Positions 8,088 through 56,319 of a DNA stretch of 64,000 nt are shown here, piece by piece. A program made the translations under genes and the position numbers. This DNA is from Tolumonas auensis DSM 9187 (GTDB taxonomy: Bacteria; Pseudomonadota; Gammaproteobacteria; Enterobacterales; Aeromonadaceae): assembly GCF_000023065.1 (NCBI RefSeq), contig NC_012691.1, forward strand, positions 3,166,501 to 3,230,500, given 5' to 3'. The notes below the pieces were generated by a model that did no database searches, had not been told where the DNA came from, and saw only the letters and a program-made list of their open reading frames with translations. The number at the start of each line of letters is the position of its first letter. Position 1 is the first letter of the stretch.

Positions 8088-9902
8088 TTAACCTCCGAAG
8101 AGATCCTTCTTATGTGTCGCTGACATCGCGGTCCAGCGTTTACGCAACGCATAGGCACTGGATTTCGGACGACGATCACGGGTGAAGATCCCTTTCTTGT
8201 TGCCACCGACACGAATGATGCCTTGTGAGGTCGCAAAGTCAGCAAAGTTCCATACCTGCTCACCTACCACCGCTTCCACACGATCAAATACCCGGTGATA
8301 CATATTGAGGAACTCGATCTGGAATTCCTCGGTCCACATGGACGGCACCACAGAGCGCAGGCCATTCATGGTATCTGCACCGTATTCGGTGATGATCAGC
8401 GGTACGCCGTATTTTTCTTCCCAGGCTCGCAGATCGGCTTCCAGCATGCGTTCCGCTGCTTTCAGATCACCGGCATCGGTGTACCAGCCGAAATAACGGT
8501 TCAGACAGATCACATCAAACAGCGCCGCGATCTTGTCTTTTTCCGCATTCACGAACATCACGCTGGCATAGGTCACCGGACGGCTCGGATCCAGACGGCG
8601 GGTCTCATCCACCAGCGGCTTAAAGTAAGCATAGGCGTTGTCCGGGCTGCTGTCAGGTTCGTTGGTGATACTCCACGCCACCACACACGGATGGTTTTTA
8701 TCGCGGGCAATCAGTTCGCTGATCGCGGCCAGATGCGCCTGTTGGGTCGCGTTGGAGATCCCTTCTTCCGAATACAGCTCTTTCGGTTCCACCACCTGCG
8801 GATTCAGGGTCTTGCCGATCACCATGTTCAGGCCCACGGCGGCAGTTTCGTTGATCACCACGATGCCGTGACGATCCGCATAGTCGAGCACCTCTTCGGC
8901 ATACGGATAATGCGAGGTACGGAACGAGTTGGCGCCGATCCAGTTCATCAGCTCGAAATCATGCACCATCATCACGTCGTCATGCGCTTTACCGCGCAGG
9001 TCGCTGTCCTCGTGTTTACCGAACCCGGTGAAATAGAACGGCTCGCCGTTGATCAGGAAGCGTTTACCTTCCACCTTCACAGAACGGATACCCACCGCCA
9101 GTGAATAGGCATCGCCGGTACCCTGTTCACCGGTGAACTGGACCGTCAGGGTGTACAGATAGGCTTTGCCCGGCTGCCACGGGGTTGCATTCCCGACATT
9201 CAGACGGCCGCTGTCGCCGCTCGCGGAAGCAACTTCTTTGCCGGCCGCGTCGGTCAAACGCACGCTGACCGAACCGGTACCGGTGGTTACCACCGAATAG
9301 TCCACTACCCCGTCACGGCCATCGTATTCGGTGACCACGGTAACGTCCTGGATGTGGGCTTTCGCCGTGGCATATAACCAGACGGAACGGTGCAGACCGG
9401 CATAGTTAAAGAAATCATGGAAATACTGCTGTTTCAGACGGCCATCCGGCTGTGTCAGCACCTGTCCCGGCGGGATGGTGTCCCAGCTCAGTACGTTGTT
9501 GACGCAGACGGTCAGACGGCAGGATTTACCGGCCTGTACATAGGCGCTGATATCCGCTTCAAACGGGGTATAACCACCCTGATGATCCATCACCAGCACA
9601 TCGTTCACCCACACGGTGCCACGATGGGTAGCGGCATCAAAGCGCAGCACAATGCGCTGATCTTTCCAGCCGGCCGGAATAAAGGTTTCGGTCTGATACC
9701 AGACATCACCGACGTGATCGCGGATTTCGGCTTCCGGAAAAATGTCGTTATAGCTGGCAGGCACCGGGATCTCCCGCGCCGCCGGCAATGGTTGCAGCCA
9801 CCACTGTTGCTGACGCCCTTCCGCCGCACGATCAACAGCAAATTGCCACAAACCGTTCAGTGATTTGCGCTCCCGGAACTGATTCTCTACAGGCTTCAGC
9901 AC
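8088..9902 (-). CDS. uidA: beta-glucuronidase
   Basis: The product (604 aa; E. coli UidA has 603) hydrolyses beta-glucuronides in the cytoplasm. The GH2 layout is complete: jelly-roll domain (about 1-180), immunoglobulin-like domain (about 180-275) and TIM barrel. The acid/base E415 is in SITNEPDSSP, the nucleophile E506 in IITEYGADT, and the glucuronate-recognising Asn-x-Lys (N568, K570) in GGNKKGIFTRDR. It starts at GTG 9902, 6 bases after AAGGAG. It forms an operon with uidB copy 2 and is divergent from a LysR regulator that is a candidate controller. Confidence 0.96.
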   Translation of the reverse strand: MLKPVENQFRERKSLNGLWQFAVDRAAEGRQQQWWLQPLPAAREIPVPASYNDIFPEAEIRDHVGDVWYQTETFIPAGWKDQRIVLRFDAATHRGTVWVNDVLVMDHQGGYTPFEADISAYVQAGKSCRLTVCVNNVLSWDTIPPGQVLTQPDGRLKQQYFHDFFNYAGLHRSVWLYATAKAHIQDVTVVTEYDGRDGVVDYSVVTTGTGSVSVRLTDAAGKEVASASGDSGRLNVGNATPWQPGKAYLYTLTVQFTGEQGTGDAYSLAVGIRSVKVEGKRFLINGEPFYFTGFGKHEDSDLRGKAHDDVMMVHDFELMNWIGANSFRTSHYPYAEEVLDYADRHGIVVINETAAVGLNMVIGKTLNPQVVEPKELYSEEGISNATQQAHLAAISELIARDKNHPCVVAWSITNEPDSSPDNAYAYFKPLVDETRRLDPSRPVTYASVMFVNAEKDKIAALFDVICLNRYFGWYTDAGDLKAAERMLEADLRAWEEKYGVPLIITEYGADTMNGLRSVVPSMWTEEFQIEFLNMYHRVFDRVEAVVGEQVWNFADFATSQGIIRVGGNKKGIFTRDRRPKSSAYALRKRWTAMSATHKKDLFGG

Positions 9903-11042: not shown

Positions 11043-12845
11043 TTATGCGTTTTTCCGGCGCATATAATGCCGCCAGCCACCCAGCGCGGTGATCTCTTCG
11101 GCGCCGGCAATGCCGTACGGTTCACAAATAAATCCGGACACCCGGCTGCCATCAGCCAGTTGTACCTTGCCAATACCCAGTGGTGCCGGAATGCCGGCGA
11201 CAAAGGAGCCGAACTCTGCTGCCGGTACACGCCACACTTCCACCTCAATCGCCTTGCCGACTTGTTCATCACGGATCAGCCCCGGACGATACGGCGGCCC
11301 GCCCGCCAGTGCATACATGCGGTAACAAGCTGCCGTGGTGGTGGTCTGCACCAAGACTGCATGGCGTTCCGTCAGCTGCCAGTTCAGCGGCAGACCGGAA
11401 AGATGCGCTCCGCACACCACCACATCAATCGTATCTGCCTGCGGCATGACAACCACGGGGGTATTGGCAGGTAATGGCTGATGACCCGCGCCCAGCGGTA
11501 ATGCCAGCTGTCGTTGCCACTGATCGCCCAATGCCAGCAGTACGTCATCCTGAAAGGCCGGTGCAAACAGCGTGATCCCGAACGGTAAATTCTGCTTGTC
11601 GCCACCGGTACGGAAACCGGCAGGTAAGGCGATCGCGCTGTAATCCAGCAGATTCATAAAGTTGGTGTAATAACCGAGATTGCTGTTGAGCTGGATCGGA
11701 TCCACTTTCACATCCTGAATTTTATAAATCGTACCGGTGGTCGGCGTGACAATCAGATCTACCTTCGCCAGCTCGGCATCGGCAATTCGTTTCAGGCGTT
11801 GCAACTCATACAATGCTTCATAGGCCTCCACGGCACTGCGCGACTCAGCACCCCCGACAATGGTCTGAATCACCGGCAGACAACGGCCGGGATCGGCGCG
11901 GAAGAAATCCTTAATCGCCGCCAACCGCTCCGCCACCCACGGACCTTCATACAGCAGACGCGCGGCCTGTAGGAAAGGTTCAAGATCAACGGTGATGGCC
12001 TTGCCACCCAAAGCCTCCAATGTTCTGACGGATTGCCAAAACAGGACTTCCGCTGCTTCATCGCCGAAAAACTTCAGTTGGTCTTGCGCCGGAACACCAA
12101 AGCGGAACTGAGCTGGAATTGGTTTTGCCGTCTGCGCTTCCCGTGCAAACGGATCCTGCGGATCAAACTGCGCCGCAATCGGCCAGACCGCCGCCAGATC
12201 CGCCGCGGTCTGTGCAAAGATGGTCACGCAATCCAGGCTCTTGCAGGCCGGCACCACGCCAGAACAACTGATGCGCCCTTTGGTGCCTTTTAAGCCGAGA
12301 ATATTGTTAAACGCTGCCGGTACCCGACCTGAACCGGCGGTATCGGTGCCCAGTGAAAAACAGACCTGACTGGTCGCCACCGCCACCGCCGAACCGGAGC
12401 TGGAGCCACCGGAGATATAGTCCGGATCAATACTGTTCTGACATGCACCATATGGGCTGCGCACGCCCACCAGCCCGGTTGCAAACTGATCGAGGTTGGT
12501 TTTACCCAGCGGAATGGCACCGGCTGCAATCAATTGCTGCACCACAAAGGCTGATGCCGGCGGCTGATAGGCAAAATCCGGACACGCCGCGGTCGTCGGC
12601 AGCCCGGCCAGATCGATGTTGTCCTTGATCGCAAACGGAATGCCGAACAGGGGCAGATCGTCCGGCGAATGTCCTTCCAGCCCGTCAAGATACGATTGTA
12701 GCTGTTCGCTGGAAAGCAGCGAGATCCAGACATGGCGTTCGTCCGCCTGCGCCTGCTGCAGACAGCGGTGTACTAACTGATGCGGGGTCAGTTCCCCGCG
12801 GCGATATGCGTCATGAATGGCACTGATGGTCATCGGTTGCGTCAT
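11043..12845 (-). CDS. atzF: allophanate hydrolase
   Basis: The product (600 aa) hydrolyses allophanate to two ammonia and two CO2. The N-terminal amidase-signature domain has the Ser-cisSer-Lys triad at K74 (FAIKDN), S148 (GGSSSGSA) and S172 (DTAGSGR). The C-terminal part (about 450-600) matches the allophanate hydrolase C-terminal domain with GLPLNWQL and YALAGGPPYRPGLI. It starts 2 bp after the carboxylase stop, with GGAGGAA overlapping the carboxylase end, and is the last gene of the operon. Allophanate can come from urea carboxylation or from deimination of carboxyguanidine; the leader riboswitch favours the second. Confidence 0.94.
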   Translation of the reverse strand: MTQPMTISAIHDAYRRGELTPHQLVHRCLQQAQADERHVWISLLSSEQLQSYLDGLEGHSPDDLPLFGIPFAIKDNIDLAGLPTTAACPDFAYQPPASAFVVQQLIAAGAIPLGKTNLDQFATGLVGVRSPYGACQNSIDPDYISGGSSSGSAVAVATSQVCFSLGTDTAGSGRVPAAFNNILGLKGTKGRISCSGVVPACKSLDCVTIFAQTAADLAAVWPIAAQFDPQDPFAREAQTAKPIPAQFRFGVPAQDQLKFFGDEAAEVLFWQSVRTLEALGGKAITVDLEPFLQAARLLYEGPWVAERLAAIKDFFRADPGRCLPVIQTIVGGAESRSAVEAYEALYELQRLKRIADAELAKVDLIVTPTTGTIYKIQDVKVDPIQLNSNLGYYTNFMNLLDYSAIALPAGFRTGGDKQNLPFGITLFAPAFQDDVLLALGDQWQRQLALPLGAGHQPLPANTPVVVMPQADTIDVVVCGAHLSGLPLNWQLTERHAVLVQTTTTAACYRMYALAGGPPYRPGLIRDEQVGKAIEVEVWRVPAAEFGSFVAGIPAPLGIGKVQLADGSRVSGFICEPYGIAGAEEITALGGWRHYMRRKNA

Positions 12846-12847
12846 GC

Positions 12848-15800
12848 TTATTCCTCCAGTACCAGTAAACGTTGTCCGGCGCGCACCTGCTGTCCGGCTT
12901 CACGACAGACATTGACCACCAGACCGGCATGCGGTGCCAGCACCTCAATTTCCATCTTCATCGATTCGATGATCAGCAACGGCTGGCCGGCCTTGACCTG
13001 CTCACCTTCGTTGACCAGCATCTGCCAGACGTTACCGGAGACCAGACTTTCCACCGCCTTGTGATGATCCGGCAGCTCTTCCTCTTCGCCGGTTTCCAGC
13101 ATCATGTCGCCGTCGGCACTGAAGTTGGCCTGACCGCTTTCAATCCAGCGCTGACGCTCGGCTTCAAACGCGGTTTGCTGGCGTTCTTTCGCCACCCGGA
13201 TTTCATCCGCATGTTCATCCAGCAGCTGGTTATAATCGGCCAGTGAGAACTCGATTTCTTCTATCTTCAGCGGATAACGCCCGCGCGGGAAATCACGGCG
13301 GATTTTCAGTAACTCTTCCGCAGAGACTTCATAGAATTTGATTTGATCGAAGAAGCGCAGCAGCCATGGCTGGCTGAATTCGGCAGTCTGGCGATAGCGG
13401 TTCCACATCTGCAGCGTGCGACCGACAAACTGATAACCGCCCGGCCCTTCCATGCCATACACGCAAAGGTACGCGCCGCCGATGCCGACCGCATTTTCCG
13501 GGGTCCAAGTGCGTGCCGGGTTGTATTTGGTGGTCACCAGCCGATGCCGCGGATCGAGTGGTGTTGCCACCGGCGCACCGAGATAGACATCACCCAAGCC
13601 CATCACCAGATAGTTGGCATTAAAGACAATCTCTTTGACCTGTTCGATGGAGTCGAGCCCGTTAATGCGGCGGATAAACTCGATATTCGACGGGCACCAC
13701 GGCGCATCTTTACGCACCAGCTCATCGTATTTGCGGATCGCCAGCCGGGTCGCTTCGTCATCCCACGACAGTGGCAGATGCACGATACGCGCCGGCACTT
13801 TGATCTGCTCGATATCGGTCAGCTCGCTTTCCGCCTGTTCCAGTAATTCCAGTAACCGCGTCAATGGTAACTGCAGATTATCGTAATGGATCTGCAGCGA
13901 ACGGATGCCCGGCGTGAGTTCCAGCACCCCGGCAATACCGGCTTCCTGCAGCCACAGCATCAGCGCATGGGCACGGAAACGCAGGCGAATATCCAGCACC
14001 TGCGTGCCGTATTCCACCAGCAGATAATCATCACCACTCGGGCGATACACTACTTTTTCACCGTATTTTTCCGCCGCCAGGATTTTCAGCACCGGCGTGG
14101 TGGGCGGTGCAATTTCAACAGTAACCGGTTGTGCGGTTAATGAGTCCAGTTCTGCCAGCTGGGCGCGTTCCAGTCTTTCGGCATCGGCAATCGACACCGG
14201 CACGAAACGCACTTTATCGCCCGCTTTCAGCTGGCCCATCTTCCACAGGTCGGCTTTAACAATGGTGGCCGGACAGACAAAGCCGCCCAGACTCGGGCCA
14301 TCCGGCCCTAAGATAACCGGCATATCGCCGGTAAAATCCACCGTCCCGATGGCATACGCGTTGTCGTGCAGGTTGGACGGATGTAATCCCGCCTCGCCAC
14401 CATCGGCGCGTGCCCACTCCGGTTTCGGGCCAATCAGACGCACCCCGGTCCGGCTGGAGTTGTAATGCACCTCGTAGTCGGTGGCGAAGAAGGCGGTAAT
14501 ATCGTTATCGGTGAAAAAATCCGGCGCACCGTGCGGGCCGTAAATGACGCGGAGTTCCCACTGATTGGCAATCGCGGGTTGCAGTTCAGTCGGTAAGCTT
14601 TGTTCTGCTACCAGTACAGACTGTTCCGGCAGATGCAACACATCCCCGGCCTGAAGCGAGCGGCCGACATGACCGCCAAACTGCCCCAGCGTAAAGGTGG
14701 AACGGCTGCCCAGATATTCCGGACAATCAATGCCGCCCGCCAGCAGCAGATAGCTGCGCGCCCCGGCAGTCGCCACTTTGCCCAGCTGCAACGTGCTGCC
14801 CGCCGGCACCGTGACCACCTGCCACATCGGCACAGGTGCACCATCAAGTTTTGCGTCGATAGCGGCACCACTGAGCACGATCTGACGGGCGGTATTGAAT
14901 TTCAGTGTCGGCCCGGACAGGGTAATTTCCAGTCCGGCACAGGTTTCGTCATTCTTCAGTAAACGGTTGCCCAGACGGAACGACCAGTTATCCATCGGAC
15001 CGGACGGCGGCACGCCGATATCCCAGTAACCAACGCGGCCGGGGAAATCCTGAATGGTGGTCTGCGTGCCACCGGAGAGCACATCAATCGTTGCCGGGGT
15101 GTAACTGAATTCATTCAAGGTGCGGGTCAGCACTTTGCCCTGCTGCACCACCTCACTGCTCAGCAGCGCCAGCAGATAATCACGGTTGGTTTCGATGCCG
15201 TAAACTTCGCTGTGCTGCAGCATAGCGCTCAGTTGCTGAATGGTCTGCTCACGATCTGCCGACCAGGCAATCAGTTTTGCCAGCATTGGATCAAAGAACG
15301 GCGGCACTTCCAGACCGGCATCCAGCCAGTGATCGATACGGCAGGTTTTGCGATCCTGCTCTGGAAAGCTGACATGACTGATCAGCCCGGCACTCGGACG
15401 GAAATTCTTCGCCGGATCTTCGGCATACAACCGCACCTGAATGGCATGCCCTTTCGGCGTCAGATCTTTCGCCAGACTATCCAGTGGTGCCAGTTCACCG
15501 GCGCCCAGTTCAATCATCCAGCGCACCAGATCCACGCCATACACCTGCTCGGTAACACCGTGCTCGACCTGCAAGCGGGTGTTTACTTCGAGAAAATAGA
15601 ACTGGCCACTGAGGTCGTCATAGACATATTCCACGGTACCGGCACTGCGGTAGCACACCTGCTGACCCAGTTGCACCGCGGTCGCTTGTAATGCCTGACG
15701 CACGTCGTCGGAGAGGTTCGGCGCCGGACACTCTTCAATCACTTTCTGGTTACGGCGCTGGGCGGAGCAGTCACGTTCACCAATGGCAATCACCTTACCC

Positions 15801-16450
15801 TGACCATCACCAAACATCTGTACTTCGATATGACGGGCATTTTCGATAAACTTTTCGAGGAACATGCCGCCGTTGCTGAAGTTGTTTTCCGACAGCCGTT
15901 TGACCGATGCATACGCTGACGTCAGCTCTTCCGCAGAAAAGCAGCGCTGCATACCAATACCACCACCACCGGCGGTACTTTTCAGCATCACCGGATAACC
16001 AATGCGTGCCGCTTCAACTAACGCATCATCCAATGATGACAACAAACCGGTGCCCGGCAATAACGGCACCTGTGCCGCTTCCGCCAGCGCCCGCGCTTCG
16101 TGTTTCAGACCAAACGCCACCATCTGCTCCGGGGTCGGGCCTAAAAACACCAGCCCTTCCTCGACACAACGACGGGCAAAATCCGGGTTTTCACTGAGGA
16201 AACCATAACCGGGATGAATGGCCTGCGCGCCGGTCTGTCTGGCAATGGCGATGAGTTTGTTTTGCGCGAGATAGGTTTGTGCGGCAGCACCTTCACCGAG
16301 TGACCAGGCTTCGTCAGCGTCTAACACATGACGGCTGTCCGCATCGGCTTCGCTATATACCGCTACAGAGGTAACACCCATGCTTTTCAGGGTGCGGATA
16401 ATTCGGCAGGCAATCGCGCCGCGGTTGGCAATCAATACTTTACTGAACAT
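12848..16450 (-). CDS. urea-carboxylase-type biotin enzyme, probably guanidine carboxylase
   Basis: The product (1200 aa) is a single-chain ATP- and biotin-dependent carboxylase. In order it has a biotin carboxylase domain (MFSKVLIANRGAIACRIIRT, ATP-grasp KSTAGGGGIGM), carboxyltransferase regions of the KipA/KipI type (GGTQTTIQDFPGRVGYWDIG; later GDVYLGAPVATPLDPRHR) and a C-terminal biotin carrier with the ESMKMEI motif, biotinylated at K1165. Homology alone gives urea carboxylase. The guanidine-I riboswitch and the two urea-amidolyase-associated genes indicate the guanidine carboxylase branch, as shown for related ykkC-controlled clusters. ATG 16450 is chosen by homology; the ORF is open 63 bases further upstream. 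Confidence 0.93.
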   Translation of the reverse strand: MFSKVLIANRGAIACRIIRTLKSMGVTSVAVYSEADADSRHVLDADEAWSLGEGAAAQTYLAQNKLIAIARQTGAQAIHPGYGFLSENPDFARRCVEEGLVFLGPTPEQMVAFGLKHEARALAEAAQVPLLPGTGLLSSLDDALVEAARIGYPVMLKSTAGGGGIGMQRCFSAEELTSAYASVKRLSENNFSNGGMFLEKFIENARHIEVQMFGDGQGKVIAIGERDCSAQRRNQKVIEECPAPNLSDDVRQALQATAVQLGQQVCYRSAGTVEYVYDDLSGQFYFLEVNTRLQVEHGVTEQVYGVDLVRWMIELGAGELAPLDSLAKDLTPKGHAIQVRLYAEDPAKNFRPSAGLISHVSFPEQDRKTCRIDHWLDAGLEVPPFFDPMLAKLIAWSADREQTIQQLSAMLQHSEVYGIETNRDYLLALLSSEVVQQGKVLTRTLNEFSYTPATIDVLSGGTQTTIQDFPGRVGYWDIGVPPSGPMDNWSFRLGNRLLKNDETCAGLEITLSGPTLKFNTARQIVLSGAAIDAKLDGAPVPMWQVVTVPAGSTLQLGKVATAGARSYLLLAGGIDCPEYLGSRSTFTLGQFGGHVGRSLQAGDVLHLPEQSVLVAEQSLPTELQPAIANQWELRVIYGPHGAPDFFTDNDITAFFATDYEVHYNSSRTGVRLIGPKPEWARADGGEAGLHPSNLHDNAYAIGTVDFTGDMPVILGPDGPSLGGFVCPATIVKADLWKMGQLKAGDKVRFVPVSIADAERLERAQLAELDSLTAQPVTVEIAPPTTPVLKILAAEKYGEKVVYRPSGDDYLLVEYGTQVLDIRLRFRAHALMLWLQEAGIAGVLELTPGIRSLQIHYDNLQLPLTRLLELLEQAESELTDIEQIKVPARIVHLPLSWDDEATRLAIRKYDELVRKDAPWCPSNIEFIRRINGLDSIEQVKEIVFNANYLVMGLGDVYLGAPVATPLDPRHRLVTTKYNPARTWTPENAVGIGGAYLCVYGMEGPGGYQFVGRTLQMWNRYRQTAEFSQPWLLRFFDQIKFYEVSAEELLKIRRDFPRGRYPLKIEEIEFSLADYNQLLDEHADEIRVAKERQQTAFEAERQRWIESGQANFSADGDMMLETGEEEELPDHHKAVESLVSGNVWQMLVNEGEQVKAGQPLLIIESMKMEIEVLAPHAGLVVNVCREAGQQVRAGQRLLVLEE

Positions 16451-16564
16451 AAGTTTAACTCTGTTCAATGCTGCCGGAAGGTATCTTCCGTCAGACTTCG
16501 GGTCGTCCCGCAAAAAATCAGGGAGCGGCTCAAGGTCGTCCTTGCGCTCAAATCTTTTGGCTAG
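16451..16564 (-). other. intercistronic gap with stem-loop inside the guanidine operon
   Basis: This 114-bp gap is the only sizeable one in the operon. It contains a bulged hairpin (16523-16549: GAGCG/CGCTC outside, CAAGG/CCTTG inside) and a short palindrome GGAAGGTATCTTCC just before the carboxylase. There is no strong T-tract at either structure. Confidence 0.5.
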
Positions 16565-17203
16565 TTAATTCCAGACCAGCACGTCAACCGGGGTCGGGTT
16601 GTAGGCATTACACGGGTTGTTCAGCTGCGGACAGTTGGAAATCAGCACAATCACATCCATCAATGCTTTCAGCTCGACATATTTACCCGGCGCACTGATA
16701 CCGTCGGCAAAGCTCAAACCACCATCCGCGGTGATCGGCACGTTCATGAAGAAGTTGATGTTATGGGTGATGTCGCGTTTGCTCATGCCGAATTCCGGAT
16801 TTTCGGTCACCGCCAGCAACCAGCTGTCGCGGCAGGCATGCATGTGTTTTTTGCCCAGATCGTAACGCACCTGATTACTCTCGGTGGCACAGGCACCGCC
16901 CAGTGTGTCGTGACGACCGCAGGTATCGGCGACAATCTCCAGCATCGGATGGCCTTCGTTGGTCATCAATACAGAACCTGTCGTCAGATAGACATTGCCC
17001 TGCTCACGGATGGTATCCACCGCGCTGTAACGCTCGGCCGGGTTAGCCGCTGAGTAAAACAGTGTGTCCGCCGCCTGATTACCTTCCGAATCGACAATGC
17101 GGATGGTCTGGCCGGCTTTTACCACTTTCATCCAGTAATCCCCCGCCCGCACCGTTTCGCGATAGGCAACATCAACCGGGTTTAACAGACTTTCCTTGAT
17201 CAT
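16565..17203 (-). CDS. urea amidolyase-associated protein 2 (DUF1989), carboxyguanidine deiminase subunit
   Basis: The product (212 aa) belongs to the DUF1989 family. Proteins of this pair, first called UAAP1/UAAP2, were later shown to be the carboxyguanidine deiminase CgdAB, which removes ammonia from carboxyguanidine to give allophanate. Visible features are [18 protein letters not shown], the [14 protein letters not shown] stretch and the cysteine segment [15 protein letters not shown], likely for metal binding, with [10 protein letters not shown] and [18 protein letters not shown] near the end. ATG 17203 has AAGGAG 6 bases upstream; a longer in-frame start at 17296 lies inside the preceding gene. 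The gap to UAAP1 is 10 bp. Confidence 0.9.
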
Positions 17204-17213
17204 GAATGGCTCC

Positions 17214-17936
17214 TTAGTGACCGGCACAGCAAACATAACGACGGGTATTTTCAAAACCACGGCCATTTTCCGGACGGGACATGCGGCAGATATCATCCGC
17301 CGCCACCGGATCCGCCTTATACACCCCGTACTGAATGGGTTTGCGCGGATAGTCAGCAGCCGGGTTCATCGGATGCGGACAGGTGTTAAACACCACCAGC
17401 GTTTCCATTTCAAAGCGCAGGGTTATCGTGTTGCCAGCCTGGGAATGCCCTTCGGCAAACTGCAGATTACCTTCATCATCGGTAAACACTTTGCTGAACA
17501 GATTGAGGTTCGCCGCCAGATCGCGCGCGCCTAGCCCGTATTTCGCCACTTCCACCAGAAAGCTGTCGTAGCCGTTCTGCTTCCACAGATTGCGCTCATG
17601 CTGATAATCACGATCGCCCCAGCGCGCCGCGATTTTGGCTTTGTTGGTGGTACCGGCCACGGTATCGATCCAGCCGGTATCATCCTGAATAACCGAGCAA
17701 AAAATGCGGCCCATATCGGAATACAGACAATGCCCGGTCGTCAGTTTAAAGGTGTGCTGACATTTCAGCGTATCCGGCGCGTTATAACGCTCCAGCAGGT
17801 TGCGCGGGTTGTAAAACAGCATCCCGACATTGGCGCCACCTTCCACATCGGTGATTTTCAGCAGCGACCCTGCCGGCATCACCATCGACCAGTGACTGCC
17901 ACCCGGCAGTGCATCTTCATACAGTAATTCGGCCAT
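17214..17936 (-). CDS. urea amidolyase-associated protein 1 (DUF1989), carboxyguanidine deiminase subunit
   Basis: The product (240 aa) is the partner DUF1989 protein. It shows the parallel pattern [40 protein letters not shown] and the C-terminal [17 protein letters not shown]. The two DUF1989 proteins are thought to act together as carboxyguanidine deiminase. ATG 17936 ([13 protein letters not shown]) follows GGGGAG at good spacing and starts 1 bp after the ABC ATPase stop, so translation is coupled; the longer open frame to 17999 overlaps that gene. Assignment as CgdA or CgdB is not attempted. Confidence 0.9.
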
Positions 17937-17937
17937 G

Positions 17938-18741
17938 TTATTGCTCCCCTTCTGTTTTTTCTGAGGATAAGAGTGCTTCCGGTGAAAAGCGTTGCGCATC
18001 TTCGGCTTTCAGCTTTCCACCGTGTAAAGGAATGTCATAGGTAATTTGCGCGCCATAGCGTTGCGGCGATTGCGGGTCATGCCGTGCTTTATCAAACACC
18101 CACAACCGGCTGCCCAGCGCAAATCCCTCTTTCAAATCGTGCGTCACCATGAAAATGGTTAAGCCCTGCTGTAACCACAGTTCACGGATCAGCTGATGCA
18201 TATCCGCGCGGATACCGGGATCCAGCGCCCCGAACGGTTCATCCAGCAGCAGAATGCGCGGCTTTTTCATCAGTGCCTGCGCAATCGCCAGCCGTTGTTG
18301 CATGCCGCCGGACAGTTCACTCGGATAACGCTGTAACGCATGACCTAAGCCCACCCGTTCCAGCATCGCTACCGCGCGCTCTTCCGCCTGCTTTTTTGCA
18401 GCACCGAACAACTTGCCCAGCCATCTGGATTGCGCGAACTCATCCGCCAGCAGCACATTGCCGAGTGCGGTTAAATGCGGAAACACCGAATACTTCTGGA
18501 ACACGATGCCGCGATGCTCGTCCGGTTCCTGCGGGATCGGTTTGCCATCCAGCAACAACTCGCCGCGCGACACACTCTCGGTGCCCAGCACCAGTTTCAG
18601 GAAGGTGCTTTTGCCACAACCGGATGCACCGACCACCGTGACAAACTCACCGGCATTGATGGAGACGTTGATGCGCTCCAGCACACACACATCGCCGTAT
18701 TCTTTCCAGACGTTTTTCGCCTGCAGGATTGGCATACTCAT
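17938..18741 (-). CDS. ABC transporter ATP-binding protein (guanidine/urea cluster)
   Basis: The product (267 aa) is a nitrate/sulfonate/taurine-type ABC ATPase. It shows Walker A GASGCGKST, Q-loop FQKYSVFPHL, signature LSGGMQQRLAIA, Walker B RILLLDEPFGALD and the switch histidine in VTHDL. It overlaps the permease stop by 4 bases (ATGA), showing coupled expression. It powers uptake of the substrate of this operon, which the riboswitch suggests is guanidine. Confidence 0.93.
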   Translation of the reverse strand: MSMPILQAKNVWKEYGDVCVLERINVSINAGEFVTVVGASGCGKSTFLKLVLGTESVSRGELLLDGKPIPQEPDEHRGIVFQKYSVFPHLTALGNVLLADEFAQSRWLGKLFGAAKKQAEERAVAMLERVGLGHALQRYPSELSGGMQQRLAIAQALMKKPRILLLDEPFGALDPGIRADMHQLIRELWLQQGLTIFMVTHDLKEGFALGSRLWVFDKARHDPQSPQRYGAQITYDIPLHGGKLKAEDAQRFSPEALLSSEKTEGEQ

Positions 18742-19568
18742 CCCTGTGCCTCCCCGTTACGACCGAAATACCAGGGGAACGCTTTCCGGGCCGTCACTTT
18801 TAATAACCAGTCCATCGCAAACGCCAGCAGCGTGATCCAGACCACATACGGCAGGATCACCGACATATCGAGGTAACGCCGCACCAGGAAAATCCGGTAG
18901 CCCAGCCCCTGCGTCGCGGCAATCGCCTCCGCTGCAATCAGGAACAGCCAGGCACTGCCGAGTGTCAGACGGACCGCCTCAAACAGACGCGGTAACACCT
19001 GCGGCAACATCATGCGCAGCAAAATCTGCCAGCTGGTCGCCCCCAGTGTCTGCGCCTTGATCAGTTGTTCTTCCGGCAGACTCAGTGTTTTTAACTGCAA
19101 ATCACGGATCAGGATCGGGCAGATGCCAATCACAATCAGCATCACCTTCGCCAGATCGCCGAGTCCGAATACAATGAACAGAATCGGCAGGATCGCCATC
19201 GGCGGGATCAACGACACAGTCGTGACCAGCGGTGAAAAAGGGATCCGGATCAGCGGAATGCCGCCATTCAGCAAGCCGACACTCAGCCCCAGCAGCGCAC
19301 TGATGCCGACCCCCATCAGCAGCAGACGCAGGCTGGACAGCGTATCGGCCCACAGCAGGTATTCCCCGGTACGACGGCTCGGCTCGAACGCCATTTTTGC
19401 AATCGAATCAAAGATCGCCGGAAAAGAAGGCAGCAGCTTGTCATTCGGGTTCACCGCCAGACGCGCTTCTGAATTCAGCAAATAAAGCACCAGCACAATC
19501 ACAAACGGCAGCAGTGCCAGTAACCAGCGACCTAAGCGATCCGGTTGTCGATTAATGAGTCGGGCCAT
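18738..19568 (-). CDS. ABC transporter permease (guanidine/urea cluster)
   Basis: The product (276 aa) is an inner-membrane permease of the SsuC/TauC type (BPD_transp_1) with about six helices; the coupling loop is around KAQTLGATSWQILLRMMLPQVLPRL. ATG 19568 follows AAGGAG. It lies between the binding protein (24 bp gap) and the ATPase (4-base overlap). Confidence 0.92.
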   Translation of the reverse strand: MARLINRQPDRLGRWLLALLPFVIVLVLYLLNSEARLAVNPNDKLLPSFPAIFDSIAKMAFEPSRRTGEYLLWADTLSSLRLLLMGVGISALLGLSVGLLNGGIPLIRIPFSPLVTTVSLIPPMAILPILFIVFGLGDLAKVMLIVIGICPILIRDLQLKTLSLPEEQLIKAQTLGATSWQILLRMMLPQVLPRLFEAVRLTLGSAWLFLIAAEAIAATQGLGYRIFLVRRYLDMSVILPYVVWITLLAFAMDWLLKVTARKAFPWYFGRNGEAQG

Positions 19569-19592: not shown

Positions 19593-20669
19593 TCACAGCT
19601 TGCCGTCGGCAGCCATCTGCATATAAGTCGGATCAAAACGCAGCTTCACGTTGTTGGCGTCACCGTAAATCCCGGTTGGCGTCTGCACCCCGACAAAACC
19701 GGCATTCGGTGCACTGTCACCTAACAGGCCGTGCTTGTAGGAAAACTCCGCTACCTGCTGCATGGTCAGCTTCAGATTCGGGCTCTGAGTCTGCGCCACC
19801 GCATCCGCTGGTTTATAGAACATGAACGTCGCTTTCAGCTGCGAGTCATAGTCCGCCAGATCCGTGCCGGCCGCTTTCGCCATCAGCGTGCGCGCCTCTT
19901 TGGCTTTGGCATCCGAACCCGACATCACACCCATGATTTCATACCAGGCACCGGTCAGCGCTTTACCCAACTCAGGGTGCGCTTTCAGCTTGTCGGTTTT
20001 CACCACCATCAAATCAAGAATTTCACCGGGGATCTGGCTGGAATCGAATACTTTGTTCGCATTCGGCTGTTTCATGATTTCAGATAACAGCGGGTTCCAG
20101 GTCACTGTTGCAGTGACATCCGGTGTAGTAAAAGCGGAAACCAGATCGGCATCCGAGGTATTCACGACCGTCACATCCTTCTCGCTCAGCCCCTGCGTTT
20201 CCAGCGCACGCGCCAGCAGATAATGCGACACACTCAGTTCAACCAGATTCACCGACTGACCCTGAATATCTTTCAGTGAGGTTTTGTCTTTCAGTACGAT
20301 ACCGTCATTGCCGTTGGAATAATCACCCACGATCAGCGCGGTAGAATCAACGCCACCGGCCGCCGGGATCGTCAGCGCATCCATGTTGGTCATCACGCAA
20401 CCATCAAAGCCACCCGCGGTATATTGGTTGATCGATTCGACGTAGTCGTTGACCTGTACGACATCAATCTCAATGTCGTATTTATCCGCCCATTTTTTGA
20501 CAATACCGCTTTGCGCCGCATAGTCCCAGGGCATCCAGCCGGCATAAATCGTCCAGGCAACTTTGAATTTTTCTTTCGCAAACGCAGGAACAGAACCGAA
20601 TAAAAAGACCGGCAACAGGCCAACACACAGCCATTTGCGGAATGACGAGCCAAATGAAGATTTTTTCAT
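19593..20669 (-). CDS. periplasmic substrate-binding protein of urea-carboxylase-associated ABC transporter
   Basis: The product (358 aa) is a NMT1/SsuA-like periplasmic binding protein matching the urea-carboxylase-region family by its WTIYAGWMPWDYAAQSGIVKKWADKY start and ATVTWNPLLSEI segment. A signal peptide runs to about residue 31 (VPAFA-KEK). It is the first gene of the operon, 60 bp downstream of the guanidine-I riboswitch, with ribosome site GGGAGGG (20680-20674). By position it delivers guanidine or a close analogue; older annotation calls it a urea binder. Confidence 0.92.
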   Translation of the reverse strand: MKKSSFGSSFRKWLCVGLLPVFLFGSVPAFAKEKFKVAWTIYAGWMPWDYAAQSGIVKKWADKYDIEIDVVQVNDYVESINQYTAGGFDGCVMTNMDALTIPAAGGVDSTALIVGDYSNGNDGIVLKDKTSLKDIQGQSVNLVELSVSHYLLARALETQGLSEKDVTVVNTSDADLVSAFTTPDVTATVTWNPLLSEIMKQPNANKVFDSSQIPGEILDLMVVKTDKLKAHPELGKALTGAWYEIMGVMSGSDAKAKEARTLMAKAAGTDLADYDSQLKATFMFYKPADAVAQTQSPNLKLTMQQVAEFSYKHGLLGDSAPNAGFVGVQTPTGIYGDANNVKLRFDPTYMQMAADGKL

Positions 20670-20721
20670 GTTTCCCTCCCTGGGAGCACGTTGGTCAAAT
20701 ACGAGAGATCATGGCTGTGCG

Positions 20722-20832
20722 CCGCTGTCTCCCGGGTTTTTGTCCCGCCGTGTAACCTTCAGGAAGGTCGATAACTCTCGGACCAGTCACTTAAGCATTG
20801 TTTGCCAAGCCGGAACCCTAGTCATCCATTAA
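20722..20832 (-). promoter_or_regulatory. guanidine-I (ykkC) riboswitch
   Basis: Read on the minus strand, the leader contains the hallmark ykkC motifs in order: CTAGGGTTCCG (20821-20811), ACTGGTCCGAGAG, ACACGGCGGGA and AAAACCCGGGAGA (ending at 20728). These are the conserved guanidinium-binding core of the guanidine-I class. It lies between the sigma-54 promoter and the first gene of the operon. In this class ligand binding normally raises expression. The CTCCC segment at 20686-20682 can pair either with GGGAG of the aptamer end or with the ribosome site, suggesting control of translation initiation. Confidence 0.97.
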
Positions 20833-20899
20833 CAAGTTGTGGCACAGAAGTCAGCGCAAACACGCCATCATCATCAAGTGCGGTATTCGGTTAACAATG

Positions 20900-20917
20900 A
20901 TGCAAGTCATGCGCCAA
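20900..20917 (-). promoter_or_regulatory. sigma-54 (RpoN) promoter of guanidine operon
   Basis: TTGGCGCATGACTTGCAT on the minus strand has GG and GC separated by exactly 10 bases and matches the -24/-12 consensus TGGCAC-N5-TTGCA at all but one position. The predicted start near 20890 lies 60 bases before the riboswitch. A possible NtrC-like half site, GCACC-N5-TGGGC at 21009-21023, is upstream. Confidence 0.8.
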
Positions 20918-21143
20918 TTCCGGAAAATGATTTTTTCGACAAAAAACACCCAAACAAATCCCTTTTTGGATCATTACTGACAAAAGTAAGGATTAATTGA
21001 CCCGAATCGCACCAATTCTGGGCCCCAGAAAGGACCACCAGGCAAGCAAAGTCATACGGCAAAGAAAGATAGAACGATTATCGGCACAGGCATCGCTGAC
21101 CCGCTTCGCTCAGGGAATAGATGATGAAATTTTCCGGACGCCG
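20918..21143. other. upstream region of guanidine operon, no gene
   Basis: This stretch between the sigma-54 promoter and the tRNA repeat holds the possible NtrC half site (21009-21023) and is where activator sites are expected. The open frame 20997-21179 has no ribosome site, starts with TTG and runs into the tRNA terminator, so it is not taken as a gene. Confidence 0.5.
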
Positions 21144-21151
21144 GAAAAGCA

Positions 21152-21175
21152 AAAACCCCGCCGAAGCGGGGTTTT
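21152..21175 (-). terminator. terminator after tRNA-Pro copy 1
   Basis: The stem AAAACCCCGC / GCGGGGTTTT with loop CGAA is followed by a T-run on the minus strand, directly downstream of the tRNA. Confidence 0.92.
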
Positions 21176-21182
21176 CTGAAGA

Positions 21183-21259
<77 letters not shown>

Positions 21260-21432
21260 AATGCGTGCATTATGCCACCAACACTATAAAAGGGAAATCA
21301 AAGATAACGCCGTTCTGACTGATTGCTCAATTTGACACCAATTCGCGTGCATTTACCATTCAATGCACACTTTATTATCATATGATGACCATAGAATGCG
21401 GCAATTTATCCATCGCCACGGACGTGTGGCCG

Positions 21433-22276: not shown

Positions 22277-22353
<77 letters not shown>

Positions 22354-29435: not shown

Positions 29436-32531
<3,096 letters not shown>

Positions 32532-32715: not shown

Positions 32716-35619
32716 TTACTGGATCGGCTGATCCGGTGCAGGTAACTGCCGATCAATCAGCTTATGCCACAAAGCCACTACTGCTGCGCGTTCTTCCTGT
32801 AATTCCTGACCATCAATAATCCGGGTTACGCCGGACAAAGTACAACGATGCGCCCGATCCCGGATTGCCAGATAGGCTTTTTTCAGTGTAATCGATTCCT
32901 CTTCTGTGAGTAATCCGGCTTCCACACAAGATTCAAAGATACGCACGTTATCCGACCAGCGGGTCAGTAATGCCGGATTCTGCGCCGCATAGGCCAGCAC
33001 CATAAACTGAGCAATAAACTCAATTTCTATCATGCCGCCCGCGCTCTGTTTCAGATCAAACTGATCCGCCGTACCGCGCAACAAATGTTTGCGCATCTTA
33101 TTGCGCATATCCGCCACCGATTTCGCCAGTGAGTGGATTTCCCGCGGCTGACTCAGGATCTCAGCCCGCACCCGCTCAAAACCGGCCAGCAGCGCAGCAT
33201 CGCCATACACGGCCCGCGAACGCACCAGCGCTTGATGTTCCCAGACCCAGGCTTCATGTTGCAGATAATGCTCATAAGCATTCAGCGTAGAAACCAGCAT
33301 GCCGGAAGCACCGGACGGGCGCAGTTCCATATCAATTTCATACAGAATGCCGGACGTCGTACGGGTCTCACATAGATGAATGATTTTCTGTGCCAGACGC
33401 ACATAAAACTGCCGTACACTCAGCGGTTTATCCCCGTTGGTATACCCTTCCCCTTCGGTCGCGTGGATAAACACAACATCCAGATCCGAACCATAACCCA
33501 GCTCAATACCACCCAGTTTGCCATAGGCAATCACCGCAAAATTTTTCTCGCCGTTTTTTACGGAAAGCGGTGGTAAACCGTGTCTGGCCGTGAGCTGACC
33601 CCATGCCTGATTGACTGCTTCCGTCAGCAACGCTTCCGCCAGCCAGGTCAGGTGATCACTGACTTTCATCAGCGGTAAGGCACCCGCGATATCCGCCGCG
33701 ACAATTTTCAGTAACTGGATCTGTTTGAACTGGCGCAACGCTTCCATCTGCTGCTCGACATCATCTTCCGGTACCCGCAGCAGATACTGACGCAGTTCAT
33801 CCCGATACTGATTGAGGGGGGTCGGGTTGTACAACTGTGCCGGATCGAGCAGTTCATCCAGCAACACCGGATATCGCGCCAGCTGCTCAGCCACCAGCGG
33901 TGTGGCCGCACACAGTTTCAGTAACTGTTTCAGTGCGCCCGGATTTTCAGCCAGCAACTGCAGATAGGCGGAACGGGTAGCAATATGCAGCAGCACTTTG
34001 CGGATCCGGTTCAGCAGCTCCGTCGGGGCGGCATCCTGCACCAGCAGGCTCAGCAGACGCGGCATGAGTTTCCCCAATGCTTCCCGTCCCTGCGGGCCGA
34101 TCGGCCGGTGCAGACATTCATCGCGTAAGTGTGTCAGCTCCGTTGCCAGTTTCTCTGCTTCCGCCACATTTTGCTGCTGCAATAACGGCACCAGATCTTC
34201 CGCCGGTAAATGGCTGTGCCACATATCCTGCCAGGCAGTAGGCACATCCGATTCCTGCTCTTCCTGCTCACCAATCACCTGACTGAATAACTGGTGAATC
34301 GCCGCGTGTACCTGCTGTAAGGCCTGAGCGAATTCTTCCCAGGAGTGATATCCCATGGCGACCGTCACCCGCAGCCGATCCCGGTCATTATCCGGTAATG
34401 TCTGGGTTTGCTGATCGGCGATCTCCTGCAGGATATTTTCTACCCGCCGCAGATAGTGATAACCGGACGAGAGTGTCTGATATTCCTCATCCGTCAGCAC
34501 ATGATGCTGCTGTAACGCCCGGAGTGCCGCCGGCATATGCCGCACCTGCAGCTCTGGTTCACGGCCACCCCGGATCAGCTGATGAGCCTGGACAATAAAC
34601 TCGACATCACGGATACCACCGGCCCCCAGCTTGATGTCATTTTTTAACCCTTTGCGCCGTATTTCAGCGACGATCATGCCTTTCATTTTCCGCAGCGCAT
34701 CAATCGCCCCGAAATCCACATAGCGGCGGTAAATAAACGGTTTCAGCATCTGCATCAGGTAGCGGCTGTCATCATTTTCCGGTCCCATGATACGCGCCTT
34801 CACCATCGCATAACGTTCCCAGTTACGGCCGTGCTGCTGGTAATACTCTTCCAGCGCCGCAAAACTTGCCACCAGCGGACCGGAATCGCCGAATGGCCGC
34901 AGCCGCATATCGACCCGGTACACCTGACCATCCGCGGTCTGCTGATGCAGCGCATTAATCAGTTGCTGGCCCAGACGGGTGAAGAAGGACTGATTATCCA
35001 GTTCCCGTCGTCCGCCCTGCGTGAAGCCCCGTTCCGGATAAGCAAAAATCAGATCAATATCGGACGAAAAGTTCAGCTCCCCTCCGCCCAGCTTACCCAT
35101 ACCAAAGATCAGCATGCGTTGTGGTTCGCCACTTTCCCTGCCGATCGGCGTACCGGCTTCACGGCACATTTTGGTATACAGCCAGTCATAGGCTGCCATG
35201 ATCAGGCTTTCCGCCAGCACTGAGAGATGTTTAAAGCTTTCTTCTACTTCGGATAAGCCCAGCAACTCACGCCAGGCAATCAGCACCATATGCTCCCGAC
35301 GGAACTGGCGCAGCACCCGCTTCAGACTATCCTCACTGTCCACGTGTTGTAAGGCGGTTTGCAGCAGAGCCGGATACGCCGCACTGCGTTCTGCCTGCAA
35401 ATATCGCTCACTGGTAAGCAGTTCAGCCAGCATGGCCGGAGAATAAATAAATGACTCGGCGACAAAATCAGATAACGCCAGCAAACGCAGCAACATCGGC
35501 TGATGAGATAAAAACAGCGCTTGCTGCTGTGCATCAGCGCGCTCCAGCAGACGTCGCCACTGTTTTGCCGCCAGTTCAGACAGTAATGCAGGTAAAGGAA
35601 TGGCAGTAGATGAAGTCAT
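32716..35619 (-). CDS. glnE: bifunctional glutamine synthetase adenylyltransferase/adenylyl-removing enzyme
   Basis: The product (967 aa) adds and removes AMP on glutamine synthetase in response to PII and glutamine. It has two nucleotidyltransferase halves: the N-terminal deadenylase with GMGKLGGGELNFSSDIDLIF (D187, D189) and the C-terminal adenylylase with YGKLGGIELGYGSDLDVVF, each followed by a GlnD-PII helical domain (RKGLKNDIKLGAGGIRDVEF, then DQFDLKQSAGGMIEIEF). The start at 35619 is the first that fits the family length; no strong ribosome site is seen. GlnB, its partner, is encoded at 41869-42207. Confidence 0.96.
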   Translation of the reverse strand: MTSSTAIPLPALLSELAAKQWRRLLERADAQQQALFLSHQPMLLRLLALSDFVAESFIYSPAMLAELLTSERYLQAERSAAYPALLQTALQHVDSEDSLKRVLRQFRREHMVLIAWRELLGLSEVEESFKHLSVLAESLIMAAYDWLYTKMCREAGTPIGRESGEPQRMLIFGMGKLGGGELNFSSDIDLIFAYPERGFTQGGRRELDNQSFFTRLGQQLINALHQQTADGQVYRVDMRLRPFGDSGPLVASFAALEEYYQQHGRNWERYAMVKARIMGPENDDSRYLMQMLKPFIYRRYVDFGAIDALRKMKGMIVAEIRRKGLKNDIKLGAGGIRDVEFIVQAHQLIRGGREPELQVRHMPAALRALQQHHVLTDEEYQTLSSGYHYLRRVENILQEIADQQTQTLPDNDRDRLRVTVAMGYHSWEEFAQALQQVHAAIHQLFSQVIGEQEEQESDVPTAWQDMWHSHLPAEDLVPLLQQQNVAEAEKLATELTHLRDECLHRPIGPQGREALGKLMPRLLSLLVQDAAPTELLNRIRKVLLHIATRSAYLQLLAENPGALKQLLKLCAATPLVAEQLARYPVLLDELLDPAQLYNPTPLNQYRDELRQYLLRVPEDDVEQQMEALRQFKQIQLLKIVAADIAGALPLMKVSDHLTWLAEALLTEAVNQAWGQLTARHGLPPLSVKNGEKNFAVIAYGKLGGIELGYGSDLDVVFIHATEGEGYTNGDKPLSVRQFYVRLAQKIIHLCETRTTSGILYEIDMELRPSGASGMLVSTLNAYEHYLQHEAWVWEHQALVRSRAVYGDAALLAGFERVRAEILSQPREIHSLAKSVADMRNKMRKHLLRGTADQFDLKQSAGGMIEIEFIAQFMVLAYAAQNPALLTRWSDNVRIFESCVEAGLLTEEESITLKKAYLAIRDRAHRCTLSGVTRIIDGQELQEERAAVVALWHKLIDRQLPAPDQPIQ

Positions 35620-35722
35620 TTTCAGGCAATCCGTTGACAGTGAATACCTAAAGCATAACAGCATCCATACGACTGCGGGATGATGGGATAGTCAATCTGT
35701 GACTTTTAAATCATGCTGCCGT

Positions 35723-54864: not shown

Positions 54865-56319
54865 ATGAAGCCGACCTTACAGTTGCGTCTTGGGCAACAA
54901 CTTGCCATGACCCCACAATTGCAACAAGCGATTCGTCTGCTGCAACTGTCTACTCTGGAACTACAACAGGAGATCCAGCAGGCTATCGATGCTAATCCTT
55001 TATTAGAACAAGAGGATGAATCTGACATCGCTACTCCGGAAATTCCGGATGATGACGATTTCACACCTCCGGATAGCAGCGAAGAAATGGCTCAGGCTCA
55101 GGAAAACATGCCTGAAGAACTGCCGATGGACACAACCTGGGATGAGGTCTATACCGCCGCCGGTTCAACATCGTCCGGTAGTGGTCTGATGAACAGTGAT
55201 GAAGAATCCGTTTATCAGGGAGAAACCGCTGAAAGTCTGCAGGATTATCTGTTGTGGCAGATGCGCTTAACACCGTTCAGCGAACAGGATGCCGCCATTG
55301 CCCTGACCATCATTGATAGTATTGATGAGTCCGGTTATCTCAGCGCCTCGCTGGAGGAGATCCAGCAAGCAGTCAGTGCTGATGATGAACTGGTCGAAAT
55401 GGATGAAATTGAAACCGTTCTGAAACGCATTCAGCATTTTGATCCGGTTGGTGTTGCCGCACGCTCGGTACAGGAATGCCTGCTGATCCAGCTGAATCAG
55501 TTTACTGCCGATACCCCCTGGCTCAATGAAGCACGTCTGGCGATTAAAGATCACATGGATCTGCTGGGCTCCCGTGATTACCGCAATCTGGCGCGTAAAC
55601 TGCAGTTGAAAGAAGGTGACCTGAAAGAAATCCTACAACTGATCCAGACGCTGGAGCCGCGCCCGGGCAGCAGAATTATACCCAGCGAATCCTCGTATGT
55701 GATCCCGGATGTGGCCGTCCTGAAAAAAAGCAACCGCTGGGTCGTCGAACTGAACCCCGATGCGATGCCAAAAGTCCGGATCAATGAAACCTATGCTTCA
55801 ATGGCCCGTCACGCCCGTAACAGCAGTGACAGCCAGTTTATTCGTTCTCATCTGCAAGAAGCCAAATGGTTTATCAAGAGCTTAGAAAGCCGTAACGAAA
55901 CCCTGCTTAAGGTTGCTAACTGCATCGTGCAACAACAACAGGACTTTTTTGAGTACGGCGAAGAAGCGATGAAACCGATGGTTTTGAACGATGTGGCCGA
56001 AGAAGTAGAGATGCATGAGTCGACAATTTCGCGAGTTACTACACAAAAATACATGCATACGCCTCGTGGCATCTTTGAACTGAAGTATTTTTTCTCCAGT
56101 CATGTTAATACTGATAGCGGCGGAGAGTGTTCTTCGACTGCAATCAGAGCCTTAATAAAAAAACTGGTCGCGGCGGAAAACCCGGCCAAACCTTTGAGCG
56201 ACAGCAAGATCGCAGACTTGCTGACGGAACAAGGCATAATGGTGGCAAGAAGAACCATCGCAAAATACCGCGAATCGTTGTCTATTCCACCATCAAGCCA
56301 ACGCAAACGCCTGCTGTAG
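54865..56319 (+). CDS. rpoN: RNA polymerase sigma-54 factor
   Basis: The product (484 aa) has the glutamine-rich region I ([20 protein letters not shown]), an acidic region II (about 50-110), and the C-terminal DNA-binding part with the RpoN box [10 protein letters not shown]. It recognises -24/-12 promoters such as the one at 20900-20917 in this window. A ribosome site (AAGGA) is 13 bases away, so translation may be modest. Confidence 0.97.

Follow-up and report, generated by a model that had tools for sequence, protein, structure and literature searches.

A sigma-54 promoter element ahead of the Guanidine-I riboswitch in the guanidine-assimilation operon of Tolumonas auensis and in related proteobacteria

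Organization of the locus

The DNA analysed here (the window) is a stretch of 64,000 nucleotides (nt) from Tolumonas auensis DSM 9187 (contig NC_012691.1, positions 3,166,501 to 3,230,500), the genome of which consists of one contig of 3,471,292 bases. It contains a guanidine-assimilation operon of seven genes, located 3' of roughly 500 nt of untranslated sequence in which a sigma-54 promoter element is followed by a Guanidine-I riboswitch aptamer. All of these features are on the minus strand, and coordinates are those of the window. Genes 1 to 3 encode an ABC importer, consisting of a substrate-binding protein (TIGR03427, 560.9 bits; 19593–20669), a permease (18738–19568) and an ATPase (17938–18741). 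They are followed by the genes for UAAP1 (TIGR03425, 321.7 bits; 17214–17999), a putative carboxyguanidine deiminase-type subunit according to a functional label taken from literature titles, and UAAP2 (TIGR03424, 337.6 bits; 16565–17296), the true start of which is probably near 17203; we take the UAAP family to be COG3665. Gene 6 (12848–16450) encodes a guanidine carboxylase of 1200 residues (TIGR02712, a model named urea carboxylase, 1874.8 bits), with a start codon placed at 16450 by sequence inspection, and gene 7 an allophanate hydrolase (TIGR02713, 807.3 bits; 11043–12845). The carboxylase, the two deiminase subunits, the allophanate hydrolase and the importer of a guanidine carboxylase operon are therefore all grouped here, and the seven same-strand genes identified downstream of the aptamer bear out the seven-gene operon proposed in a first-pass annotation of the window.

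The same annotation had placed a ykkC/guanidine-I aptamer at 20722–20832 and had proposed a covariance-model search, which located the aptamer (RF00442) at full length (model positions 1–107) at 20832–20727. Its assignment to the Guanidine-I family is based on a score of 84.1 bits, against a gathering threshold of 63. The segment preceding the aptamer in the predicted 5' leader (20833–20890) contains a conserved hairpin-like stretch in the alignment of nine leaders from the genus. A consensus fold of these nine leaders also predicted that both the Shine-Dalgarno sequence and the gene 1 start codon are covered by a hairpin (20667–20690), the pairs of which are invariant across the nine sequences and hence lack covariation support. 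The stretch from the aptamer to the gene 1 start codon yielded no hairpin-plus-U terminator, so the first gate in Tolumonas is probably translation (or Rho). T-runs 3' of the aptamer are present in several relatives.

A second guanidine riboswitch, absent from the first-pass annotation, precedes the carboxylase gene. The region between genes 5 and 6 contains two GGACGACC hairpins and matches the Guanidine-II family (RF01068; 38.5 bits, gathering threshold 32) at 16547–16498, and this match is the only one in the genome. With an internal Guanidine-II riboswitch guarding the carboxylase, the operon would have at least three control points rather than two. The two-layer architecture originally proposed thus holds for the sigma-54 promoter, the Guanidine-I aptamer and the assimilation operon, but its count of control elements was incomplete. 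All nine Guanidine-I genomes of the genus also carry Guanidine-II, on the same contig and 4.2–4.3 kb downstream of Guanidine-I in eight of them and on another contig in the ninth. A Guanidine-II match inside the operon was found in 28 of the 37 carboxylase genomes of the order sample (one contig was too short to judge), and several further carboxylase genomes of this sample display both GGACGRCC hairpins by eye. The internal riboswitch was considered as a novelty of this operon and rejected as such, because the layout of Guanidine-I followed by Guanidine-II has already been described in a review (PMC12186494).

The sigma-54 element and the NtrC-like site

The first-pass annotation had also proposed a GG-N10-GC promoter at 20900–20917. 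We found TTGGCGCATGACTTGCA at 20917–20901, with exactly this spacing and near-consensus flanks, and it scored 16.8 of a possible 21.0 in a sigma-54 matrix. This matrix, like the NtrC matrix used below, is an approximation built from a consensus sequence; the sigma-54 consensus matches the motifs in the available portions of PMC8743547 and PMC5491218, the former giving TGGCACnnTTnTTGC as the Escherichia coli motif. Three positions on the two strands of the window, including TTGGCGCATGACTTGCA, reach a score of 12 and two reach a score of 16. The strict pattern YTGGCRCRNNNNTTGCW occurs four times in the 3.47 Mb genome, and the reversed-pattern control does not occur at all. One of the other three YTGGCRCRNNNNTTGCW occurrences is found on the ntrC strand, 3.3 kb upstream of that gene, presumably where a glnA promoter is to be expected. 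The gap between the C of the -12 element and the aptamer is 69 nt, and we predict a transcript start near 20890, about 12 nt past the GC at 20903–20902.

An NtrC-like enhancer site, GGCCCAGAATTGGTGCG (21008–21024), was identified with the NtrC matrix (9.5 bits, with p 0.03 from 60 mononucleotide shuffles); its centre is some 126 nt before the predicted start. The NtrC consensus, TGCACCAnnnTGGTGCA, is given in the available portion of PMC8743547. Taken alone this putative site is suggestive, and it becomes convincing only with the set of related loci. Stronger NtrC-like sites were found in two other genomes of the genus (14.7 bits at locus L040 and 13.8 bits at L041). The T. auensis genome encodes both NtrC (TIGR01818, 769.2 bits; C1:511349-512749) and RpoN (TIGR02395, 538.7 bits). 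The rpoN gene (54865–56319) and glnE (32716–35664) are inside the window, as the first-pass annotation had indicated.

Conservation of the promoter–aptamer arrangement

Guanidine-I was found in nine of the 11 Tolumonas genomes, and all nine loci have a sigma-54 site of 13.8 to 16.8 bits at 67 to 72 nt from the aptamer. For the wider comparison, an element was scored when the sigma-54 matrix reached at least 11 bits no more than 160 nt away from the aptamer. Guanidine-I was present in 39 of the 394 genomes of the GTDB order sample, and the element in 43 of 47 Guanidine-I loci at the order level, genus included. At the class level (369 genomes sampled), 31 of 37 Guanidine-I loci have the element, giving 74 of 84 for the order and class combined, against a background of 31 of 2043 windows of 160 nt from operon bodies. 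Coupling between the sigma-54 element and Guanidine-I is conserved far beyond T. auensis, and the combination flagged in the first-pass annotation is thus of broader significance than was stated there.

Two further sets of loci were examined. Among at least 80 named loci found via the binding protein, the aptamer could be located and the upstream sequence was long enough in 75, of which 61 reach 11 bits; at least nine of the starting loci share contigs with the order and class sets. The phylum sample (398 genomes) yielded the element at 38 of 44 new loci, counting L203, which was already in the order set, and leaving aside four more loci that the search expression did not locate. In the seven out-of-class loci with the element, the C of the -12 element is 9–11 nt before the aptamer, so transcription would begin at the aptamer's own first nucleotides. 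The spacing there is thus constrained, and Rhizobium johnstonii 3841 shows a matching arrangement (20.3 bits, 11 nt before the aptamer). Azospirillum sp. B510 has no aptamer ahead of the binding-protein gene and no strong sigma-54 site there.

NtrC-like sites were searched for 20 to 160 nt upstream of the sigma-54 element. Sites of at least 8 bits were found at 63 of 74 loci, as compared with 121 of 2058 background windows, and their median position is 118 nt before the predicted start. At the order level, 42 of the 43 loci with the element have NtrC-like sites at p 0.05 against mononucleotide shuffles.

Loci of the efflux type were also inspected. None of 21 Guanidine-II loci before an SMR efflux gene in a sister genus has a sigma-54 site within 400 nt (orientation was clear from the SMR gene in 17 of the 21), and the sole efflux-type Guanidine-I locus, L115, lacks the element. 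At four loci of the class (L162, L165, L168 and L172), the gene after Guanidine-I resembles a ureohydrolase, with a Pfam Arginase match in both of those tested; the element scores 15.7–18.2 bits at the first three and 9.9 at L172. A second guanidine pathway may therefore share the sigma-54/Guanidine-I arrangement. Some of these arginase-family leaders are divergent from a second Guanidine-I leader. Elsewhere (L193, L196, L219 and L226), two same-strand Guanidine-I leaders lie about 1.4–1.6 kb apart, each with its own sigma-54 element.

Complementarity around the aptamer

In many relatives, the first segment of the predicted sigma-54 transcript is complementary to a stretch shortly 3' of the aptamer, such that the resulting helix would enclose the aptamer. 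Complementarity of this kind was seen in L235, L240, L258, L268, L269, L163 and others, and is strong in L240, the leader of Alcanivorax profundi. Cross-family duplex energies proved to be non-discriminating as a test of this helix (mean own value -27.3 versus cross value -20.9 kcal/mol, with the cross mean below the own value in several families), because many leaders share GAGAG/CTCTC stretches. We therefore adopted ungapped helix scores, evaluated against shuffles and against windows from the same operon. With 200 such windows, p was at most 0.05 in 34 of the 78 order and class loci tested; when medians were taken per genus, 17 of 42 genera reached this level. Of the named loci, 66 could be tested and 47 passed p 0.05, after six of the at least 80 loci had been set aside for leaders that were too short and eight had been dropped (no aptamer, a short or N-containing upstream region, or a 3' end that could not be located).

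The arms of the helix are widely divergent in sequence between groups. Of the 39 loci that are significant and carry a scored element, 38 have a 5' arm beginning 0–16 nt past the predicted start, which provides independent support for that start. The long-range helix is likewise present at six loci where no element was scored and therefore does not depend on sigma-54; an element abutting the aptamer leaves no room for it. The helix is followed by a terminator-like T-run in some families and by a possible anti-Shine-Dalgarno segment in others.

The helix is unsupported in the genus Tolumonas itself, with ungapped p values of 0.585 in the window and 0.09–0.785 in the eight relatives. RNAalifold predicts it there, but the four pairs changed on both sides are all inside the aptamer.

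We tentatively propose, at somewhat less than even confidence, that in proteobacterial guanidine-assimilation operons the sigma-54 promoter has co-evolved with the Guanidine-I riboswitch as one unit. The distance from start to aptamer would be fixed, and in the transcripts of many gammaproteobacteria the 5' end would pair with a segment 3' of the aptamer, forming a helix (P0) that sets the expression platform and is apparently undescribed, although no literature search was aimed at it. Promoter and switch would then not be independently exchangeable. A closing helix with the transcript start as its 5' strand would also mean that aptamer constructs cut at the Rfam boundaries lack part of the natural switch.

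Other features of the window

Upstream of the leader are a tRNA gene (21259–21186, minus strand) and then a hairpin followed by Ts (21175–21151). This tRNA gene and another on the minus strand (21186–21259 and 22280–22353) have identical sequences and bracket the HAD-hydrolase gene located just before the operon, as a local duplication might produce. The window also contains two family-2 glycosyl hydrolases of the beta-galactosidase type (8088–9902 and 29436–32519).

Proposed regulation and alternative explanations

We consider it likely that the operon is transcribed by the NtrC/sigma-54 system under nitrogen limitation and then gated by guanidine through Guanidine-I and Guanidine-II. Under nitrogen limitation, phosphorylated NtrC bound about 100–150 nt upstream would activate sigma-54 RNA polymerase at 20917–20901. 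In the nascent leader, the Guanidine-I aptamer would permit expression of the first genes only with guanidine bound, and the internal Guanidine-II would likewise gate the carboxylase. The result would be a serial gate, with nitrogen shortage leading to transcription, guanidine to the importer and deiminase, and guanidine again to the carboxylase. From the arrangement of these motifs, an AND logic combining nitrogen limitation and guanidine appears plausible.

Several observations weigh against this interpretation. The sigma-54 and NtrC matrices are approximate, and GGCCCAGAATTGGTGCG is a weak NtrC-like site. Outside the class, only seven of the 13 located loci of the phylum sample have the element, and ten of the 84 order and class loci are below the threshold (L112, L113, L114, L115, L154, L157, L170, L172, L176 and L178), although the sub-threshold elements of L114, L172 and L176 (9.8–10.8 bits) may be real. 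A lack of sigma-54 or NtrC does not account for the element-less loci: among 14 genomes tested (those lacking the element and some having it), rpoN was matched in all 14 and NtrC exceeded the cut-off in 12, missing only in G254 (the efflux locus) and G755 (L178). Four genomes with an element-less locus (G256, G402, G734 and G796) have both rpoN and NtrC over the cut-off, so sigma-54 control is not obligatory. Finally, transcripts of the homologous operon of Burkholderia cenocepacia H111, compared here at the level of its genes, are present under nitrogen limitation. As a separate observation, the rpoN match in G796 is in two pieces (C1:1827992-1829358), and the guanidine operon of this genome is one of those without a scored element.

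The H111 data bear on both NtrC and the logic of the gate. In the ntrC mutant under nitrogen limitation, the ABC periplasmic protein and aminomethyltransferase related to urea carboxylase had no reads, and urea carboxylase was 6.0-fold lower; this dependence is an unremarked table entry, and the terms guanidine and riboswitch have no occurrences in the available text (PMC5491218). The presence of these transcripts in a study that, as far as its available text goes, never mentions guanidine argues against a strict AND at the RNA level. In an OR-like or graded logic, NtrC would set the level and the riboswitches would tune it, with substantial expression under nitrogen limitation alone. The leader without an intrinsic terminator also fits this possibility, since the RNA level need not follow guanidine, but the available part of the J Bacteriol review (PMC12186494) describes Guanidine-I as an ON switch that mostly acts on transcription and Guanidine-II as one that acts on translation, and we regard graded control as rather unlikely, although it is the strongest of the alternatives.

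An enhancer-binding protein other than NtrC, responding to a different signal, might also drive the sigma-54 operon. NtrC-family matches are numerous in the genome (30 among the matches listed), and most relatives have a stronger NtrC-like site than the window does. However, suitably spaced NtrC-like palindromes are present in 63 of 74 related loci, the B. cenocepacia operon depends on NtrC (PMC5491218, available text), and the neighbours of the T. auensis operon are genes for a LysR regulator and the HAD hydrolase, with no adjoining enhancer-binding-protein gene. A different activator is therefore improbable. Least probable of all is a sigma-70 promoter with a secondary or inactive -24/-12 match: aptamers without a detectable sigma-54 element (L112, L113, L154, L170 and L178) indicate that other promoters can serve, but a simple scan of 20600–21300 found no sigma-70-like promoter (0.7 expected from shuffles), and the sigma-54 element is rare in the genome and kept in nine of nine genus loci.

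If transcription by NtrC and sigma-54 followed by guanidine gating is correct, many proteobacteria would turn to guanidine as a nitrogen source of last resort, with the operon licensed by the nitrogen status of the cell in addition to being inducible by guanidine. Comparisons of growth or proteomes on guanidine and ammonium could not then separate the two inputs, and one input would escape reporters placed outside the sigma-54 context.

Comparison with known systems

A link between guanidine riboswitches and sigma-54 or NtrC was not found in the open-access literature, as judged mostly from titles and the openings of abstracts, which does not prove its absence from print. The words guanidine, riboswitch and sigma-54 occur once each in PMC9723704, and NtrC has no occurrences in the available portions of PMC11410670 and PMC12508155. 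PMC12508155 reports increased expression on guanidine or methylguanidine relative to ammonium, a design in which nitrogen status and ligand are inseparable. In the available text of PMC12316311, a genome-scale prediction assigns sigma-54 control to 102 COG3665 genes, 59% of which are called urea carboxylase; in contrast to our analysis, guanidine does not occur in that text and no riboswitch is linked to the prediction.

The closest known systems are the operons of three enterobacteria growing on guanidine, in which Guanidine-I is followed by Guanidine-II (PMC12186494). As in T. auensis, the importer and deiminase are behind Guanidine-I, the carboxylase and allophanate hydrolase are behind Guanidine-II, and the operon serves nitrogen assimilation. 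The text of that review does not mention NtrC, whereas here a sigma-54 element and NtrC-like sites precede Guanidine-I. The double riboswitch is thus already published, and the coupling of sigma-54 to Guanidine-I is a conserved variant of known regulation. The NtrC/sigma-54 scavenging operons of B. cenocepacia H111, as described in the available part of PMC5491218, combine a -24/-12 promoter, an NtrC-type enhancer and the catabolism of alternative nitrogen sources, as is predicted for the T. auensis operon, and the NtrC regulon of H111 likewise includes urea-carboxylase-related genes. They differ in that neither riboswitch nor guanidine is mentioned in that text, whereas in T. auensis the promoter is followed by a putative ligand-specific RNA gate.
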